Assembly (NCBI GenBank): GCA_002348045.1
Contig: DDYO01000300.1
Span: 1 to 12,754 of the forward strand
DNA from: Anaerolineales bacterium UBA2232
GTDB taxonomy: Bacteria; Chloroflexota; Anaerolineae; UBA2200
Direction of reading: 5' to 3'
Length of the DNA stretch: 12,754 bases
Shown: one piece after another, positions 185 through 10,246 of the stretch
Position numbering within the stretch: position 1 is the first letter of the stretch
Layout: each line of letters begins with the position of its first letter
Translations under genes and position numbers: made by a program
Notes under the pieces: generated by a model
Told to the model about the DNA's origin: nothing
Databases searched by the model: none
The model's input: only the letters and a program-made list of their open reading frames with translations

Positions 185-1474
185 ATGACGCGGTCCTCCC
201 GCTTGCAGGGCTTTTACCAATCTTCACCTGATGAGCGCATCGCTGCGCTACGCCAGTTTGCCGACCTGACCGAAGAGGAAGCTAACAACCTCGCCGGCGT
301 CTCTGGCCTGACCGTGGACCAGGCCGATCACATGATCGAGAACGTCATCGGCTTCTTTGGGCTTCCTTTGGGGATCGCCACCAATTTTACCGTCAACGGA
401 CGCGACTATCTGGTCCCGATGGCCATCGAAGAGCCGTCCGTGGTAGCTGGCGCCAGTTTCGCTGCCCGTCTGGTGCGCGATGGCGGCGGGTTCCGTGCCA
501 GCAGCGATGAGCCCCTGATGATCGGACAGATCCAGGTCCTCGATGTCCCGGACCCGTGGGCTGCCCGGTTCAACGTTCTGGCTGAGAAGCAAGACCTCTT
601 GAACAGCGCCAACGAGCTGGACCCGGTGATTGTGAGCCTGGGCGGCGGCGCCCGTGACCTCGAAGTGCGGGTGATCGAGCAGAGCCCCGTCGGGCCCATG
701 CTCGCGGTTCACCTCATCTATGACGCCCGGGACGCGATGGGCGCCAACACCGTTAATACTGCCGCCGAGGCCATCGCGCCGCGGATTGCTGAGCTCACGG
801 GCGGGCGAACCCTACTGCGCATCTTGTCGAACCTGGCGGATCGCCGGCTGGCCCGTGCCATGGGCAGGATTCCCGTCGATTCGCTGTCCCATGCAGGCTT
901 CTCAGGCCAGCAGGTAGCCCAAGGGATCGTTGAGGCGTGGGCTTTTGCCGCAGCAGACCCCTACCGCGCTGCAACCCACAACAAGGGCATCATGAACGGA
1001 GTAGATGCCGTCGTCATCGCCACGGGCAACGACTGGCGTGCCATTGAGGCAGGGGCCCATAGCTTTGCCGCCCGCGGCGGGCGGTACACTTCACTGAGTA
1101 CGTGGCAACTGGACGCCCAGGGCGACCTGGTCGGCACATTGGAATTGCCAATGGCTGTAGGCATCGTCGGTGGGGCCACCCGCGTGCACCCTGCTGCCAA
1201 AGCAGCTCTAAAGGTACTGGGCACAAGCACAGCTCGCGAGCTTGCCGAGGTCGTCGCGGCCGTGGGACTCGCCCAGAACTTGGCAGCTCTGCGGGCGCTG
1301 GCCAGTGAGGGCATTCAGCGGGGGCATATGAGGCTGCATGCACGCCAGATTGCAGTCGCCGCGGGCGCGGAAGGTGCGATGATTGGGCAAGTCGTGCAGG
1401 CCATGCTGGAGGAAAAGACCATCCGCATCGACAAGGCACAGGAAATCCTCAATCGTATTCAGGGCAAGGCATGA
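185..1474 (+). CDS. mvaA: hydroxymethylglutaryl-CoA reductase, class II
   Basis: Interconverts HMG-CoA and mevalonate with a nicotinamide cofactor in the cytoplasm. The 429-residue length matches class II enzymes such as Pseudomonas mevalonii HMGR. The ENVIG motif is at 52-56, EEPSVVA at 82-88 and DAMGAN at 183-188. The known class II catalytic residues fall at the same numbers as in P. mevalonii: Glu83, Lys267 (NKGIMNG), Asp283 (GNDWRA) and His381 (GHMRLHAR). Asp146 is also present at the position linked to NAD(H) preference in the P. mevalonii enzyme, which suggests, without proving, NADH use. A GAGG stretch lies 4 bases before the ATG; another ATG at 175 is out of frame. Although P. mevalonii uses the enzyme to degrade mevalonate, co-transcription with HMG-CoA synthase points to biosynthesis here. 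The stop codon overlaps the next start (ATGA). Confidence 0.96.
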
Positions 1475-2517
1475 AACCCATCCAAGATGTGGGAATCGTT
1501 GGCTACGGCGCATACCTGCCCCGGTATCGGCTTCCAGCGTCTGAGGTGGCTCGGGTCTGGGCAGCCGGGCAGGGCGGCCTTCCCATCGAGGAGAAGACTG
1601 TCCCGGGGCTGGACGAGGACACGGCTACCATGGCCATTGAGGCGGCCCGCAATGCCCTGGCGCGGGCGCAAGTATCGGCCGAGCAGCTAGGGGCTCTTTG
1701 GGTTGGCAGCGAATCGCACCCCTATGCGGTCAAGCCCACTTCGACCATCGTAGCCGAAGCGATCGGAGCGACACCCGCCGTGCTGGCTGCCGATTGGCAG
1801 TTCGCATGCAAAGCCGGCACGGAGGCCCTCCAGGCTGCCTTTGGCATGGTGGGCTCCGGCATGATGCCGTACGCCATGGCCATCGGCATGGATACCGCCC
1901 AGGGCCGCCCCGGCGACGCCCTGGAGTACACGGCCGCCGCCGGTGGCGCGGCCTATGTTGTAGGCCTGCGAGAGCACAGTCTCGCTTACCTGGAAGCCTC
2001 GGCCTCCTACGTGACCGATACGCCGGACTTTTTCCGGCGTCCGTACCAGCACTACCCCGAGCATGGGGGACGGTTCACCGGCGAGCCGGCGTACTTTAAG
2101 CACATTACCAACGCGGTCACAACGCTGTTGAATGAACTGGGGTACAAACCAACGGACTTTGCTGCCGCTGTTTTTCACCAGCCGAATGTCAAGTTCCCAC
2201 AGCGCGTCGCACAGATCCTCGGATTCAGCAAAGAGCAGATCCAGACAGGCCTGCTCTCTCCCCAGGTGGGTAACACCTACGCCGGTTCCTCCATGCTGGG
2301 GCTCACCGCCATCCTGGACGAGGCCCAGCCGGGAGACCGTATTCTATTGGCCTCCTTCGGTTCCGGCGCGGGCAGTGATGCCTTCAGTTTCGTGGTCACC
2401 GACCGTATCCGCGAGAGGCAAGCCCTGGCACCCAAGACGCAAGTATATGTCATGCGCCGCAAGCCGGTGGATTATGGGCTCTATGCGCGCTACCGTCGAA
2501 AACTTCAGATGCATTAG
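1471..2517 (+). CDS. mvaS: hydroxymethylglutaryl-CoA synthase, archaeal type
   Basis: Condenses acetyl-CoA with acetoacetyl-CoA to HMG-CoA, the step before the reductase encoded upstream. The 348-residue protein has the size and motifs of the archaeal branch. Residues that fit the catalytic triad are Glu81 in [12 protein letters not shown], Cys113 in FACKAG (the acyl-enzyme nucleophile) and His236 in FHQPN. A glycine-rich segment, [10 protein letters not shown], lies near 296-305. The ATG overlaps the mvaA stop codon by 4 bases, so translation is probably coupled; AAGG just upstream is only a weak ribosome site. In archaea this enzyme forms one complex with a thiolase and a DUF35 protein, and both partners are encoded immediately downstream. 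All its own catalytic residues are intact. Confidence 0.95.
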
Positions 2518-2523
2518 CCATCC

Positions 2524-2530
2524 GAGAGGA
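2524..2530 (+). promoter_or_regulatory. ribosome binding site supporting a TTG start
   Basis: GAGAGGA lies 5 bases before TTG at 2536. No in-frame ATG lies nearby, and the protein from this TTG begins with the expected thiolase strand (REVSLIGVGQT), so the TTG start is well supported. Confidence 0.6.
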
Positions 2531-2535
2531 TACCA

Positions 2536-3696
2536 TTGCGCGAAGTAAGCCTTATTGGAGTTGGACAAACCAAAGCAGGCGAGCATTGGGATCGCTCGTT
2601 CCGGGACCTGGCGGTGGACGCCATCCAGGCGGCCATGAAGGATGCCGGACAGGAGCGAGCCGATGCCCTGTATGTGGGCAGCATGCTGTCAGGCGAGCTG
2701 GTTTCCCAGGCGCACGTAGGCGCGTTAATCGCCGACTGGGCTGGTCTGGGTGACATCGAGGCCGCCCGCATTGAGGCCGCCGACGCCTCTGGCGCAGCGG
2801 CTGTGCACTTTGGCTATATGGCCGTGGCCAGCGGTATGTACGATCTGGTCGTCGCCTGTGGCGTTGAGAAGACAACCGACACCGACACCGAAATCGTCTC
2901 CGCCGCCTGGGCCTCGGCCACCGATGCGGAGTATGAAGCAAACCAGGGCCTGACGATGAACGCCCTGGCCGGCTTACTGATGCGCCGGTACATGCACCAG
3001 TTTGCCGTCAGCCGCGAGGCATTCGCCGGCTTTGCCGTCAATGCCCACGCCAATGGCGCCAACAACCCGCATGCCATGTTCCGGTCGCCCATCTCGGCAG
3101 AGGCCTACACCAGGGCAGGCATGGTAGCCGATCCTATCGGCATGTTTGATGCGGCGCCCCTGTGCGACGGCGCAGCCGCAGTGGTGTTGTGTCCTAGCGA
3201 TCACCCGCTGGAGCAGGGCAGGCTATCCTTGCACGTGCGCGCCTCCACCATGGCGACCGATCGCCTGGCGGTGCACAGCCGGCTTGATCCGCTGTTCTTG
3301 CACGCGGCAGCAGCCTCGGCCCGCAAGGCCTACGAGCAGGCCGGCATTGGCCCGCACGACATCGGCGCCCTTGAGCTCCACGATGCCTATGGCATCCTGG
3401 CCGCCCTGTCCCTGGAGGCGTGTGGCTTTGCCAAGCAGGGCAAAGGAGCCGAGCTGGCTCAGGACGGATCCATTTCGCTGAAGGGAAGGATCCCGATCAG
3501 CACCATGGGGGGGCTCAAGGCGCGTGGCCATCCCATCGGCGCAACCGGGGTGTATCAGATCGTGGAGTTGGCCACTCAGCTTCGTGGTCAGGCCGGAAAG
3601 AACCAGGTCGAGTGTCGACTGGGTATGGCGCAAAGTCTGGGGGGCTGCGGCGGAACCGCCGTCACCCATATCCTAGAAGCGCACACGCAAGCTTAG
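2536..3696 (+). CDS. thiolase-family protein of the HMG-CoA synthase complex, nucleophile Cys replaced by Asp
   Basis: The 386-residue protein has the archaeal acetoacetyl-CoA thiolase / SCP-x thiolase fold. Recognisable blocks are DRSFRDLAVDA (19-29), IEAADASGAAA (79-89), VADPIGMFDAAPLCDGAAAV (197-216), LHDAY (281-285), GGLKARGHPIGATG (325-338) and a glycine-rich end (369-373). In the family the third block reads EA-A-Cys-A-S-G, with Cys as the acyl-carrying nucleophile. Here that residue is Asp83 (codon GAC, two base changes from TGC). The usual HDCF motif reads HDAY, so its Cys is Ala284, while His282 and His332 remain. Normal thiolysis or Claisen condensation through an acyl-Cys therefore looks impossible. 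It may be a structural or channelling subunit, or an aldolase-like enzyme comparable to the Cys-less, DUF35-bound Ltp2 of steroid catabolism. It lies 18 bases after mvaS and 16 bases before the DUF35 gene. Confidence 0.9.
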   Translation: MREVSLIGVGQTKAGEHWDRSFRDLAVDAIQAAMKDAGQERADALYVGSMLSGELVSQAHVGALIADWAGLGDIEAARIEAADASGAAAVHFGYMAVASGMYDLVVACGVEKTTDTDTEIVSAAWASATDAEYEANQGLTMNALAGLLMRRYMHQFAVSREAFAGFAVNAHANGANNPHAMFRSPISAEAYTRAGMVADPIGMFDAAPLCDGAAAVVLCPSDHPLEQGRLSLHVRASTMATDRLAVHSRLDPLFLHAAAASARKAYEQAGIGPHDIGALELHDAYGILAALSLEACGFAKQGKGAELAQDGSISLKGRIPISTMGGLKARGHPIGATGVYQIVELATQLRGQAGKNQVECRLGMAQSLGGCGGTAVTHILEAHTQA

Positions 3697-3712: not shown

Positions 3713-4117
3713 ATGAACGTACCGAGAATCTGGAGAACGGAAAAGACCCGCTACGGGCTCGTTGGAGAGACCTGCCGGGTGTGCGGCGAAGCCATCTTCC
3801 CACCTCGTGATGTCTGCCCCCACTGTACCGAGGCAGGCCAGGACCCCCGCGCCTTCTGCGGCAAGGGAGAGGTGTTTTCGTTTTCGACCGTCTCCGAGGC
3901 GCCCGTGGGTTACGCGGAGAATCAGCCCTATACCATGGCCCTGGTCAAACTGGAGGAAGGCCCCTTGGTCACTGCCCAGCTCACCGATGTGGACAGCGAA
4001 GAGCTGCGCATTGGCATGCCAGTGGAGATGGTCACCCGCAAGATCCGCGAAGAAGGCGAGAACGGCATGATCGTTTACGGGTACAAGTTCAGGCCGGTGC
4101 TTGCCGGTTCGCAGTAG
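3713..4117 (+). CDS. DUF35 zinc-ribbon and OB-fold protein
   Basis: A 134-residue protein with a rubredoxin-like zinc ribbon followed by an OB-fold. Zinc ligands are Cys21 and Cys24 (CRVC) plus Cys35 and Cys38 (CPHC); the OB-fold runs from about residue 48 to 130. In archaea the DUF35 protein bridges thiolase and HMG-CoA synthase and helps pass acetoacetyl-CoA between them, and gene order here supports the same partnership. A strong ribosome site (GGTAGGAGGT, 3695-3704) precedes two nearby ATGs. The one at 3708 stops after two codons, so 3713 is the start. The gene is the last of the operon and is followed 24 bases later by an intrinsic terminator. Confidence 0.93.
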   Translation: MNVPRIWRTEKTRYGLVGETCRVCGEAIFPPRDVCPHCTEAGQDPRAFCGKGEVFSFSTVSEAPVGYAENQPYTMALVKLEEGPLVTAQLTDVDSEELRIGMPVEMVTRKIREEGENGMIVYGYKFRPVLAGSQ

Positions 4118-5984: not shown

Positions 5985-6233
5985 GTGGGCCGGTGGTTCC
6001 TCTCGCCGCTAGTGCCTGTGGCCGCGCGCTTCTTCCCCGGCTTTGCCGCGGCCAGTTTCCCCGAGCCCGCCGCGGATGACCGATACTCCTCCAGCACAGC
6101 GATTACCCCACATGGCGACGATCTCGTCGTCTTTACCACCGACCCGAACGCTCTCAGCTTGGCAAACATCGCCAGCCGGCTCATGCCAGTTGAGCTTGAG
6201 CACTCGATTACGTTACTATCGGCGCTGCCGTGA
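5985..6233 (+). CDS. possible small hypothetical ORF
   Basis: A GTG at 5985 follows AGAGGGAG (5971-5978) by 6 bases and opens an 82-codon frame ending at 6233. The translation starts with a hydrophobic, Ala/Pro/Phe-rich stretch (RWFLSPLVPVAARFFPGFAA) and continues as an ordinary mixed sequence with no recognised domain. It is unlike any family I know. A promoter-like pair lies about 60 bases upstream. Against it, overlapping minus-strand frames are equally open and another promoter-like pair lies inside it. It may be untranslated leader of the next gene. Confidence 0.3.
   Translation: MGRWFLSPLVPVAARFFPGFAAASFPEPAADDRYSSSTAITPHGDDLVVFTTDPNALSLANIASRLMPVELEHSITLLSALP
6190..6219 (+). promoter_or_regulatory. 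weak promoter candidate for the large secreted protein gene
   Basis: TTGAGC (6190-6195) and TACTAT (6214-6219) are 18 bases apart, each matching consensus at 4 of 6 positions. Transcription would start about 50 bases before the ATG at 6275. Confidence 0.25.
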
Positions 6234-6260
6234 CAGCATCGACGCGCGTATCCAGTCATG

Positions 6261-6266
6261 GGAGGG
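6261..6266 (+). promoter_or_regulatory. ribosome binding site fixing the start of the large protein
   Basis: GGAGGG lies 8 bases before ATG at 6275. The alternative in-frame GTG at 6230 has no such site and would put 15 polar residues before the signal peptide, so 6275 is preferred. Confidence 0.7.
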
Positions 6267-6274
6267 ACAAAGCC

Positions 6275-9200
6275 ATGATTACCTGTCGCTTGCTACGGTT
6301 TGGTGCTATTGTAGGGGTGCTGATCGGCCTTGCCTTCATCGTTTTGGCCACGGGCTTGGTCCAAGCTGGCGACGCAAGCCTGCCCGAAGCCACAGTCTCC
6401 GGAGCCGTCCGCCACCAAGGCAGCCCTGTCGCTGGCGTAGAGGTGACCGTCGCCTGGCAGACTGACAGCCAGGACGTGATCACCGGCGCCGACGGCACTT
6501 ACAGCATTCCGGGCGTACCTACCAGCGAAGAGATCACCCTTGAGGTCCGCCCGCCGGTCGCCCAGCGACTGGCTTATCGGAACTGGCGCGGGACCCTGAC
6601 CGGTGACCTGGTCAAGGACTTCGACCTCGTCAGCGGCTACCGGCTCGAGGGAGAGTATCGAACCCCCGACGGCTCCCGATACACGGGATTTCGCCCTCGG
6701 TTGCTCGCCGTCGGCGCGCTCCTGCCGGCTGGAGAGTTCTTGGGCCCCGCCATGAACCCAGATGGATCGTTTGATGTGGTCCTGCCCCCTGGGGCTTACG
6801 CCATCGTCCGCAATGACGAGATGGAGCCCTACTTTGTGCCGCCCACGATCGTCGATCTGCGACAAGGTGAGGTACTGAGCAAGACCATCCTCCTCAGTTA
6901 TCGGCCCTCACCCCTTCCCGTTGCGCCGCCCATCGCCGACAAGATTGCGGTCGGACTGCCTGATGCGCAAGGGTGGGCGACCGTATCGGGCGCACCGGGT
7001 AGCGTCCCCCCTCTCGTAGCGGTCCTCGTGGTGAACCTGAGTGCCGGCACGCTCGATGTCACGGCATCTGACATGTCCGGCGCCTTTGCCGCGTCGCTGT
7101 TTGCGCCACCTGGCTCCTCCCTCTTGATCAAGTACGATCCGGTGGCGGAGACACTGGCCGGCCTCTATGCAACGACTGCCGATACTACGATCGACCCGTT
7201 AGATCCCTCGACGGGTGATCTCCCATCGCTGCCAGGTGCGATGATCTACGCTGGAGCGCCGCCCCTGGGAGGTGACGGGTGGCAGGCGTTCGACAGCACC
7301 GCCGGCCTCCTGCAAAGGACACCGCGCGGCTGGGCAGGCGTGCAGCTATCTGGCGTCCTTGCCACGCAACCCGGAGGTCCGCCAGGCATGAGCGTGTTGC
7401 CCGGTGAGACCATCACTATCACCGCTAGTGTGCGGGTGACGTCGCCTGATGCCACGTGCAGCTTGCCGGTCACGTTTTCCATCCAGGCCGGCCTGTCGCT
7501 GCACCGCCAGTTTAGCGCCGACGGTCGCTCCTGCCCCGGGGTGGACGATTTCTCCGCATACCTGTTCACGCCCACCGGCCTGCCGATCGAGCACAACACC
7601 CACGGAGAGGATGTGGCAATTGGCACAACTCAACTGTCCTCTTGGAGCTGCGTCAGCGATCACGTCTTCCAGAGCGCCTTGACCCTCACTGCCACGATTC
7701 CGCTCACGCTCCCAGAGGGAGTCTGGCTGCCCTTGGTCCATTTCCGCCCCAACGGTGTGCCGCTGAGCACGGATCTGCCCCTGGTCGTGGTTTGGTACCA
7801 CATCCTGGAGACCTCTTTTCTGCCGCCGCTCCGCGTCGGTGAGCCAGCCGCTCCGGTCCTGCCGATGGTCATGTTTGCCGACTATCCCAGTAACGGTCAT
7901 CGTGGCGTGGCAGCCAGGGAGGACATGGATTTCTATCGGCTCCAGACATGGGTCACGTTTCCGCCGCAGCAGGTAGTGCTGCCCCGCCTGGACGAGCGGA
8001 GCGGAGAACCCCTGAGCTACCAGCTCGAGCCTGGGTCGAACTGGCTGTCGCTCACGGACCGACGCCTCCCCCATCCCCTGCATGTGCCCCTCCTCTTCCC
8101 ATCCGGTTCGCTGACCGCCGAGGTCGTTCGGCCGGACTCTCAGGTGGAGGTACTCGGTCCCGCGCCCTTGCGGCAGTCGTCACTGCGAACGCCCACGGTG
8201 CCGGGCGGCACCCAGATCGCCCAACGAACCGGTACGGTAGGCGACATCTACCACCTGTACACAGGTGACCCCAGCTTTGCCTACTCTTTCCCCCTCGACG
8301 GTCAGTACACGATCCGCCTCTTTGGAGAGGTAGAAGACATCTACGGCAACGTCTACTTTGTCCGGGGCACCTACGACCTGGTCGCGGCGCGCATCCTCGA
8401 CCTGGCACCAGCGCAATTGCCCGGCATGCCTTACTACCAGGGAGATTTCTTGGCGCCGGGCTTGCACATCAACCCACCGGTAGCAGCCGATGTCACCCTA
8501 CAGGTGATTCATCTGCCCTTCTCCGACCCGGCGCAGGCCATCACTCACACTTTCTCTGGGCAGGCGAATCGCTTTGGTTCCTTCCAGCCGGAGGCTGGGG
8601 CGGCAGTTCGTTTTGAGACGCCAGGTGAGTTTCGGGTCGATGTAACAGCGTGCTATACCTCCCCCGATGGTGTGCGTTGGCTTGGCTCGGCCAGCTGGGG
8701 CAACGTCGTCGAAAGAACGGCGGCGCGCATCGAGGCGCACGGCCGCCGCGGCATGGACTACACTGGCTCGCCCATCGACGACCAGCCCACCTGGTTCTTC
8801 GTCGACCAGGTGCCCACGCACAAAGTCGCCGTCGACACATACGTCCCTTACTTCAGCGGCGACATCTATTGGGGCCGCCAGGACGCCCAGTTTGGCGACT
8901 CGATCCAGCCGGCGGTCACGATCCGGGACACCACCGGGCCTGGTCAAACCATCTACGACCTGCTTCGCGACTATGTGGATGATGCGGTTGGCGAGTTCCG
9001 CCGTCCTCCCAACGACGATGCGTCGTCCGCACATCTGGAGGCGCGGATCGCCATCAACGAAGCGCCCCTCTTCCTCGCGACCGACGGCAAGCGGGACCCC
9101 GCCATCTATCCCGAATCCCTACGGCTCCTGGCCTACGGCTACAATGCCTCCGAGCGCCCCAATGCGCGCGTGCGCGAGGTGATCTCCACGGACATGCTCA

Positions 9201-10246
9201 GCGTAGGCTACTGGGGCTTTGAGGATACCTACAACTACCAGATCGGTGTCCCGGCAGATGGCGACCAACCTGGCGACATCAAGTGGAATTTCGGCGGAGC
9301 GGTGCTGCGCACCCTCGATCTTCAGAATCCCATCGCCGAGTATGGCGCCTATGCTTCTTTCTGGGTGCTGCTGCCCGACGGCGACCCTGTGGGGCCGCGC
9401 ATCACCCCTCCCTTCCAGGACGCTGTTAGTTCGATCAATGGCGGTCCCATCTTTGTGCTCGGCGGTCAGGAGATCGATATGCTCTTCCTGCCGCGCGGCG
9501 TTTCCCCTGGTGACCTGCTGGAGGTGGGCGATACCGTCAGTTTCTCCGGTCACGTCGGTCCACCGCTGGACAGCCGGGTCGATGTAACCATTACCTCGCC
9601 CAGCGGCGCTCAGCACGCTGCTTCGTGGCATGCCAACAAGATCGGCTGGCTATACGACCCGACCTTTGACTTTGTAGCCCAGGAACCGGGACGCTGGACC
9701 GTGGATGTTCAGGTAGAGCATGATCGGCCCTACCTGCCGACCGGGTTGACCCCCATCCGCCACAACACCGGCACCGTCCTTGGCACCGGAGGCCGCTACG
9801 AATTCTACGTCGTTGAGCCCGACGCCCCTCGCCTGTTCCTGACCGACCCACAGCCTGGCTTCTTCACCTGGCCCGCCTGGGAGATTGAGCCAATCCTGAT
9901 CCGGGGCGTAGCGCCGGCCGGTACAACGGACGTCTACTATACCGTTTATGACAAAGGCGTCGTGATGAAACAGGGATCGCTTCTTCCCAATGCAGCGGGC
10001 ACCTTTCAGCTAACTTACGACGCCGAGGCCCTTCACGAGACATTCCCGATGCTCAGCCTCGTTGCCCGCGAAGGACGTTGGGAGGGTTTGGCTGACGAAG
10101 TGTCGATCCGGTTGCTGGCGGTCGGCGGCGGAACGCCCCGCGCCGGTGAGGTCACGCTGATCGGCGAGGAGGTGTTCATTCAGAATGACGTAAGCGGCGA
10201 GGCGCAGCGACTGTACCTGCCGCTGATACTCAAGATGACCCGTTAG
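6275..10246 (+). CDS. large secreted beta-rich protein of unknown function with YLPLIL tail
   Basis: A 1323-residue predicted exported protein. Residues 1-31 form a signal peptide: MITCRLLR, a hydrophobic core and a likely cleavage after VQA at 29-31. Residues 38-92 look like a carboxypeptidase-regulatory-like/CNA-B fold (SGAVRHQGSPVAGVEVTVAW, then GADGTYSIPGVP), and 121-207 resemble a second such unit. The rest is Pro/Gly/Thr-rich, predicted mostly beta strand, with Ig-like stretches near 1069-1150 and 1195-1290; I recognise no catalytic motif. The last residues, LYLPLILKMTR, form the hydrophobic short tail that I recall at the ends of many secreted Chloroflexota proteins. Few cysteines are present. 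It is probably a surface or extracellular structural/adhesive protein, but its function is not known. Confidence 0.85.
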   Translation: MITCRLLRFGAIVGVLIGLAFIVLATGLVQAGDASLPEATVSGAVRHQGSPVAGVEVTVAWQTDSQDVITGADGTYSIPGVPTSEEITLEVRPPVAQRLAYRNWRGTLTGDLVKDFDLVSGYRLEGEYRTPDGSRYTGFRPRLLAVGALLPAGEFLGPAMNPDGSFDVVLPPGAYAIVRNDEMEPYFVPPTIVDLRQGEVLSKTILLSYRPSPLPVAPPIADKIAVGLPDAQGWATVSGAPGSVPPLVAVLVVNLSAGTLDVTASDMSGAFAASLFAPPGSSLLIKYDPVAETLAGLYATTADTTIDPLDPSTGDLPSLPGAMIYAGAPPLGGDGWQAFDSTAGLLQRTPRGWAGVQLSGVLATQPGGPPGMSVLPGETITITASVRVTSPDATCSLPVTFSIQAGLSLHRQFSADGRSCPGVDDFSAYLFTPTGLPIEHNTHGEDVAIGTTQLSSWSCVSDHVFQSALTLTATIPLTLPEGVWLPLVHFRPNGVPLSTDLPLVVVWYHILETSFLPPLRVGEPAAPVLPMVMFADYPSNGHRGVAAREDMDFYRLQTWVTFPPQQVVLPRLDERSGEPLSYQLEPGSNWLSLTDRRLPHPLHVPLLFPSGSLTAEVVRPDSQVEVLGPAPLRQSSLRTPTVPGGTQIAQRTGTVGDIYHLYTGDPSFAYSFPLDGQYTIRLFGEVEDIYGNVYFVRGTYDLVAARILDLAPAQLPGMPYYQGDFLAPGLHINPPVAADVTLQVIHLPFSDPAQAITHTFSGQANRFGSFQPEAGAAVRFETPGEFRVDVTACYTSPDGVRWLGSASWGNVVERTAARIEAHGRRGMDYTGSPIDDQPTWFFVDQVPTHKVAVDTYVPYFSGDIYWGRQDAQFGDSIQPAVTIRDTTGPGQTIYDLLRDYVDDAVGEFRRPPNDDASSAHLEARIAINEAPLFLATDGKRDPAIYPESLRLLAYGYNASERPNARVREVISTDMLSVGYWGFEDTYNYQIGVPADGDQPGDIKWNFGGAVLRTLDLQNPIAEYGAYASFWVLLPDGDPVGPRITPPFQDAVSSINGGPIFVLGGQEIDMLFLPRGVSPGDLLEVGDTVSFSGHVGPPLDSRVDVTITSPSGAQHAASWHANKIGWLYDPTFDFVAQEPGRWTVDVQVEHDRPYLPTGLTPIRHNTGTVLGTGGRYEFYVVEPDAPRLFLTDPQPGFFTWPAWEIEPILIRGVAPAGTTDVYYTVYDKGVVMKQGSLLPNAAGTFQLTYDAEALHETFPMLSLVAREGRWEGLADEVSIRLLAVGGGTPRAGEVTLIGEEVFIQNDVSGEAQRLYLPLILKMTR

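Follow-up and report, generated by a model that had tools for sequence, protein, structure and literature searches.

The thiolase-fold protein encoded between HMG-CoA synthase (HMGS) and a DUF35 protein in a 12,754-nucleotide stretch of DNA from Anaerolineales bacterium UBA2232 (hereafter the window) carries Asp83 in place of the nucleophilic cysteine, and is best explained, with a probability of roughly 0.6, as a member of the archaeal-type acetoacetyl-CoA thiolase/DUF35/HMGS complex that has lost thiolase function and is kept as a subunit to build the complex, perhaps holding acetoacetyl-CoA made elsewhere. This reading is drawn from the loss of the nucleophile, the retention of gene order and of the HMGS catalytic residues, purifying selection on the gene, and the presence of other thiolases. 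Moreover, and beyond what the initial annotation of this DNA had noted, most of the sampled operon-linked thiolases of the Chloroflexota likewise lack the cysteine.

The window operon and its thiolase-fold protein

The operon lies on the forward strand, and includes a gene for HMG-CoA reductase (HMGR; 185..1474; TIGR00532, 451.3 bits against a cut-off of 259.95; PF00368, 387.2 bits). The genes for archaeal-type HMGS (1471..2517; TIGR00748, 535.6 bits, cut-off 353.35; NF003274, 547.5 bits, cut-off 244), the thiolase-fold protein (2536..3696; 386 amino acids, TTG start) and the DUF35 protein (3713..4117) are neighbours on that same strand, and the hexamer GAGAGG (2524..2529, forward strand), as read from the sequence, is the likely ribosome binding site of the thiolase gene. 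The window HMGS has E81, C113 and H236, which we take to be its catalytic triad, and the DUF35 protein, composed of a zinc ribbon and an OB fold (PF12172 and PF01796), has cysteines at positions 21, 24, 35 and 38. Two further features of the window are recorded here: its HMGR scores above the cut-off of TIGR00532, a 'degradative' family, yet the operon looks biosynthetic, and positions 6230-10246 encode a 1338-residue protein whose sole Pfam match is one carboxypeptidase regulatory-like domain. All matches in a plasmid search fell below 60% identity, with five listed rows at 37-39%.

The query protein has the thiolase fold and scores 437.8 bits with the subfamily model NF004720 (thiolase domain-containing protein), above the curated cut-off of 420, and 379.6 bits with the equivalog model NF053570 (acetyl-CoA acetyltransferase), below the curated cut-off of 600. 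Both catalytic histidines, those of the HDxF and GHP motifs, are retained: His282 (codon CAC, 3379..3381, forward strand) within HDAY, at the place of the HDAF/HDCF motif, and His332 (codon CAT, 3529..3531, forward strand) within GHPIGATG. The column of the nucleophile holds Asp83 (codon GAC, 2782..2784, forward strand), in agreement with the initial annotation, which had held that the catalytic cysteine is absent and that the protein cannot work by an acyl-cysteine mechanism; the latter claim stands for position 83. The annotation had also judged a sequencing error unlikely. For the protein of the window itself there is just one contig (database row P0002), as would be the case if Asp83 were an error of sequencing or assembly, but Asp stands at this column in another 64 database rows and in six genomes of one order, two sets that may partly overlap, and these further sequences already refute such an error, the probability of which is negligible.

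Loss of the cysteine across the Chloroflexota

From a larger group, 400 Chloroflexota genomes were drawn evenly and searched at E <= 1e-80, with up to four candidates scored per genome, a threshold at which more distant or additional family copies may be missed. Matches were found at 130 places in 95 genomes, and the addition of six more genomes from the order of the nearest genome brought the family to 101 of 406 genomes. Copies were termed operonic when an HMGS or DUF35 match lay within approximately 1.5 to 2.5 kb on each side, or a shorter distance at contig ends; six of the 101 genomes had no operonic copy above threshold. Left out of the 101 were a copy with Pro83 (L159, genome G409, E 3.1e-69) and the genomes of L002 (Cys), L003 (Gly) and L004 (Gly). 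Within this set, operon-linked copies carry Cys in 15 cases and another residue in 80 (Gly 60, Asp 14, Glu 3, and Gln, Thr and Ala one each), and copies unlinked to HMGS or DUF35 carry Cys in 37 cases and Thr in four.

Several other loci were also noted. Four unlinked copies (L101, L105, L111 and L112) form a separate clade with Thr at the cysteine position (ATATGAAAL) and both histidines retained. Two genomes hold tandem pairs of distant thiolase-like genes, at 24-28% identity, with Gly or Thr at the nucleophile position (for example YVGGGTG): L018/L020 (G001 contig 7, 427-2743) and L019/L021 (G004 contig 64). At L011 (2709-3097), and also at L001, the DUF35 match consists of two overlapping pieces, possibly through a frameshift or small duplication.

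As an archaeal control, 30 operonic relatives were read, the best matches among 178 matching genomes in the phylum of L010, and all 30 keep the cysteine. Five of these (L209, L212, L215-L217) have Asn in place of His332, so His332 alone is no mark of activity. Trees were then built with the three catalytic columns excluded, by FastTree (267 rows) and IQ-TREE (102 rows), after removal of P0002, the query duplicate, and P0071 (324 amino acids); some of the database rows may duplicate loci. The fewest changes between Cys and non-Cys number 10 on each tree, a count that is without direction and that on the IQ-TREE tree crosses a backbone weak in places (bootstrap 37-77); that Cys is the older state is taken from the archaeal rows. 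A deep operonic clade of 74 rows on the FastTree tree contains no Cys83 at all, and retains His332 in three rows and His282 in 30; one row, L051, belongs to this clade by FastTree but is separated from its other members by IQ-TREE. Additional losses of the cysteine are found among the Cys-bearing lineages, and the query clade is one of these. Independent pairs relating operon position to cysteine loss number one on supported branches and three overall, and give the association no statistical support; for loss of Cys and loss of His332 there are seven pairs, approximately four in the same direction and none in the opposite (median p 0.125).

Conventional thiolases elsewhere in these genomes bear upon the initial annotation's suggestion that the complex may need another thiolase to supply acetoacetyl-CoA. 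In the related order, each of seven genomes has three strong conventional matches (E 3.0e-72 or better), and in every genome the C[GA]SG block is present in the best of the three. Five of the seven best proteins were scanned; all five pass TIGR01930 (acetyl-CoA C-acyltransferase), and their top-scoring models are acetyl-CoA C-acetyltransferases, mostly below the models' own cut-offs. A wider search, with one thiolase of the order as query at E <= 1e-70, gave a conventional match in all 36 genomes that have no unlinked paralogue beside their non-Cys operonic copy, and in 37 of 37 further non-Cys genomes, which together with the seven of the order makes 80 of 80; the cysteine itself was read in seven of these 80 genomes, the others being scored by match alone. 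Among the 15 genomes with a Cys-bearing operonic copy, a conventional match was found in eight and none in seven. One genome, G330, has its conventional match split over two open frames (contig 5, 42824-43592); with that genome set aside, the operonic Cys thiolase is the sole one found in six of the 15, to which gaps in the genomes may contribute. The difference in thiolase availability between non-Cys and Cys genomes gives a Fisher p of 5.8e-6, uncorrected for kinship or completeness. In this sample, then, no operonic copy without the cysteine occurs in a genome that gave no conventional match, a contrast that kinship and completeness may have inflated, and supply by another thiolase, with a separate thiolase present in all seven genomes of the order, is among the readings that fit best.

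Selection, partners and the role of Asp83

Glu81, Cys113 and His236 of HMGS are retained wherever they could be scored, in all 77 non-Cys and all 22 Cys loci, archaeal loci included. All four DUF35 zinc cysteines are present in 23 of 23 Cys loci versus 21 of 59 non-Cys loci (the window aside). At least one zinc cysteine is missing in the other 38 of 59, where the substitutes are commonly H/N, T, A/T and E.

Mean dN/dS of the thiolase gene is 0.106 in the query clade, a rough value from seven pairs that all have dS >1, and 0.076, 0.100 and 0.069 in other non-Cys groups, the last from one pair; the two Cys groups give 0.135 and 0.065. For HMGS the values are 0.073, 0.027, 0.075 and 0.033 in the same four non-Cys groups, and 0.137 where the operonic thiolase has Cys. 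Purifying selection thus acts on the thiolases that lack the cysteine, though less strongly than on their own HMGS. These thiolases change faster than HMGS while Cys operonic thiolases do not, as is expected if the active site has been freed. The recurrent loss of catalytic residues and this faster change might also be taken to mark the gene as a decaying relic, carried in the operon with no role, but an intact frame, a mean dN/dS of about 0.1, a well-formed predicted fold and the presence of the four genes together in all seven genomes of the order argue otherwise, and such a relic is highly improbable.

Demand for the pathway product is suggested by a search of 12 genomes, all of which have a mevalonate kinase above cut-off and none of which matched TIGR00243, the DXR model used, which does not cover the type II enzyme and whose silence may owe something to genome gaps. 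HMG-CoA should therefore be needed, mevalonate being apparently the isoprenoid route. Two papers describe a pathway of archaeal or haloarchaeal type in some Chloroflexota (PMC13001223, PMC11052028).

On the preferred reading of a thiolase-dead subunit, with which the initial annotation's option of a scaffold agrees well, a conventional thiolase elsewhere would make acetoacetyl-CoA, and the thiolase-like protein, HMGS and DUF35 would form the predicted complex. HMGS and DUF35 may need the operonic protein for assembly, which would account for its retention, and its CoA site, presumably adjoining that of HMGS, may hold acetoacetyl-CoA or hand it over. Without the cysteine, acetoacetyl-CoA close to the HMGS site would no longer be cleaved to acetyl-CoA by thiolysis, and the recurrence of the loss could be due to this.

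How firmly Asp83 is fixed was read from 120 listed homologues of 7999 scored proteins (121 rows, the query being counted twice), among which column 83 holds Asp in 66, Cys in 36, Gly in 11, Glu in six, and Ala and Ser in one each. On the FastTree tree the query clade comprises 69 rows, with a mean pairwise identity of 0.76 and a minimum of 0.63 (P0075 included), and 68 of them have Asp83. The single Cys83 row, P0075, is a mosaic, its residues 1-160 resembling Cys rows and residues 161-386 being near-identical to P0061/L155; a reversion to Cys within the Asp clade was accordingly rejected in favor of recombination or mis-assembly. Inferred changes within the clade number one at column 83 (that of P0075), none at His282 and two at His332, where the average site has 5.8, and among the 68 Asp rows His282 is invariant and His332 is present in 94%. 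In the order of the nearest genome, HMGR, HMGS, thiolase and DUF35 lie together in seven of seven genomes, and the residue, which the initial annotation had proposed to check for fixation in genomes of the same gene order, is near-fixed there (Asp in six of the seven, Ala in one, all within one order). A second, more distant and unlinked copy in a D-clade genome (L159; G409 contig 21, 49593-50765) has Pro at this position. Asp83 in the query clade is a selected replacement whose role is probably structural or electrostatic, within the former acyl pocket.

The clade shows further near-fixed changes, namely N to A at 145 (60 of 68), A to G at 146 (64 of 68), V to I at 334 (62 of 68) and L to M at 203 (87%), and these, together with the conservation of Asp83, His282 and His332, are the data that fit a scaffold least. 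On their account, chemistry of a residual or new kind keeps a chance of about one in five. The protein might be an enzyme in which Asp83, His282 and His332 act as acid and base upon a CoA thioester and so feed HMGS, for example by malonyl-CoA decarboxylation or by direct non-covalent condensation. Conservation of all three residues across a clade of such divergence speaks for this, as does the coincidence of the changes at 145 and 203 with the loss of Cys, and, according to PMC12329534, the Cys-less thiolase-like protein TbSLP has weak malonyl-CoA decarboxylase activity. Countering these points, near relatives have Gly, Ala, Ser or Glu at 83, with the operon confirmed for the Ala row (L158); W125 and S126 were altered before the cysteine was lost; and conventional thiolases exist in the order. 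That the enzyme has changed its chemistry is therefore possible but unlikely, and we regard as equally tentative the fuller proposal that the clade thiolase was rebuilt on Asp83 and the two histidines into a subunit handling acetoacetyl-CoA or malonyl-CoA by a non-covalent chemistry of its own.

Persistence of ordinary thiolase activity through another nucleophile, be it an Asp83 anhydride or another cysteine, is very doubtful. Cysteines 219 and 296 are present in 68 of 68 D-clade rows, 108 in 65 and 210 in 66, and they are rarer in 97 Cys83 rows (219 in 21, 296 in 37, 108 in 16 and 210 in 25), as might be hoped of a relocated nucleophile. The same cysteines, however, also occur in the closest sister rows that have Cys83 (296 in two of the three), and Gly, Ala and Ser likewise occur at 83 in the family. 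A relocated nucleophile was rejected, the other conserved cysteines predating the loss of Cys83.

Known relatives and the meaning of the loss

In the archaeal complex, as PMC12329534 recounts (citing Vogeli 2018), one CoA site is common to thiolase and HMGS, so that acetoacetyl-CoA moves on without being released. The query differs in its Asp nucleophile position, and many related Chloroflexota loci differ also in lacking catalytic histidines and DUF35 zinc cysteines. Judged by sequence, the query system is a variant of this archaeal-type complex and not of the Ltp2/Sal aldolases, with which the initial annotation had drawn a comparison. The steroid aldolases Ltp2/ChsH2-DUF35 and Sal/Shy-DUF35 (PDB 6ok1, 9myr) do resemble the query in pairing a thiolase fold with DUF35, and PMC12329534 places Gly at the nucleophile position of CtSal. 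According to that paper, however, Ltp2 and Sal use the Tyr of a YDHF/YDCY motif, where the query reads HDAY at 282-285; the comparison is thus unsupported, and membership among these aldolases was rejected for want of the catalytic Tyr.

Other proteins share individual features with the query. The SCP2-thiolase-like TbSLP (PDB 5ab4-5ab7) has a thiolase-like fold and, according to PMC12329534, shares none of the five SCP2-thiolase cysteines; unlike the query it is eukaryotic, has no DUF35 partner, carries a YDCF motif and is 21-22% identical. The thiolase-like ST0096 of Sulfolobus tokodaii (PDB 4yzo), at 30% identity to the query, has the family fold with Ser in the nucleophile column. BbsCD, going by the title of a paper cited in PMC10818641, keeps an inactive subunit beside an active one, as the query is read to do, but that title makes it a short-chain alcohol dehydrogenase, not a thiolase. 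Searches of openly licensed PubMed Central papers (CC0, CC BY, CC BY-SA) showed no prior report of the Chloroflexota pattern of cysteine loss.

Were the less likely, rebuilt subunit to prove real, the opening step of the mevalonate pathway would be separated from reversible thiolysis, or would replace it, and the phylum would hold repeated natural cases of a reversible enzyme turned into a subunit for one-way hand-over. On the favored reading, the operonic thiolase without its cysteine, in the query and in many of its Chloroflexota relatives, is probably a non-thiolase partner subunit at the start of isoprenoid synthesis, and the acetyl-CoA acetyltransferase label given to several of these proteins would be wrong for the non-Cys copies. 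Loss of the nucleophile in 80 of 95 sampled operonic subunits would separate a structural from a catalytic role, and the natural variants at residue 83 (C, D, G, E, A, S, T and Q) offer material for testing how channeling works.
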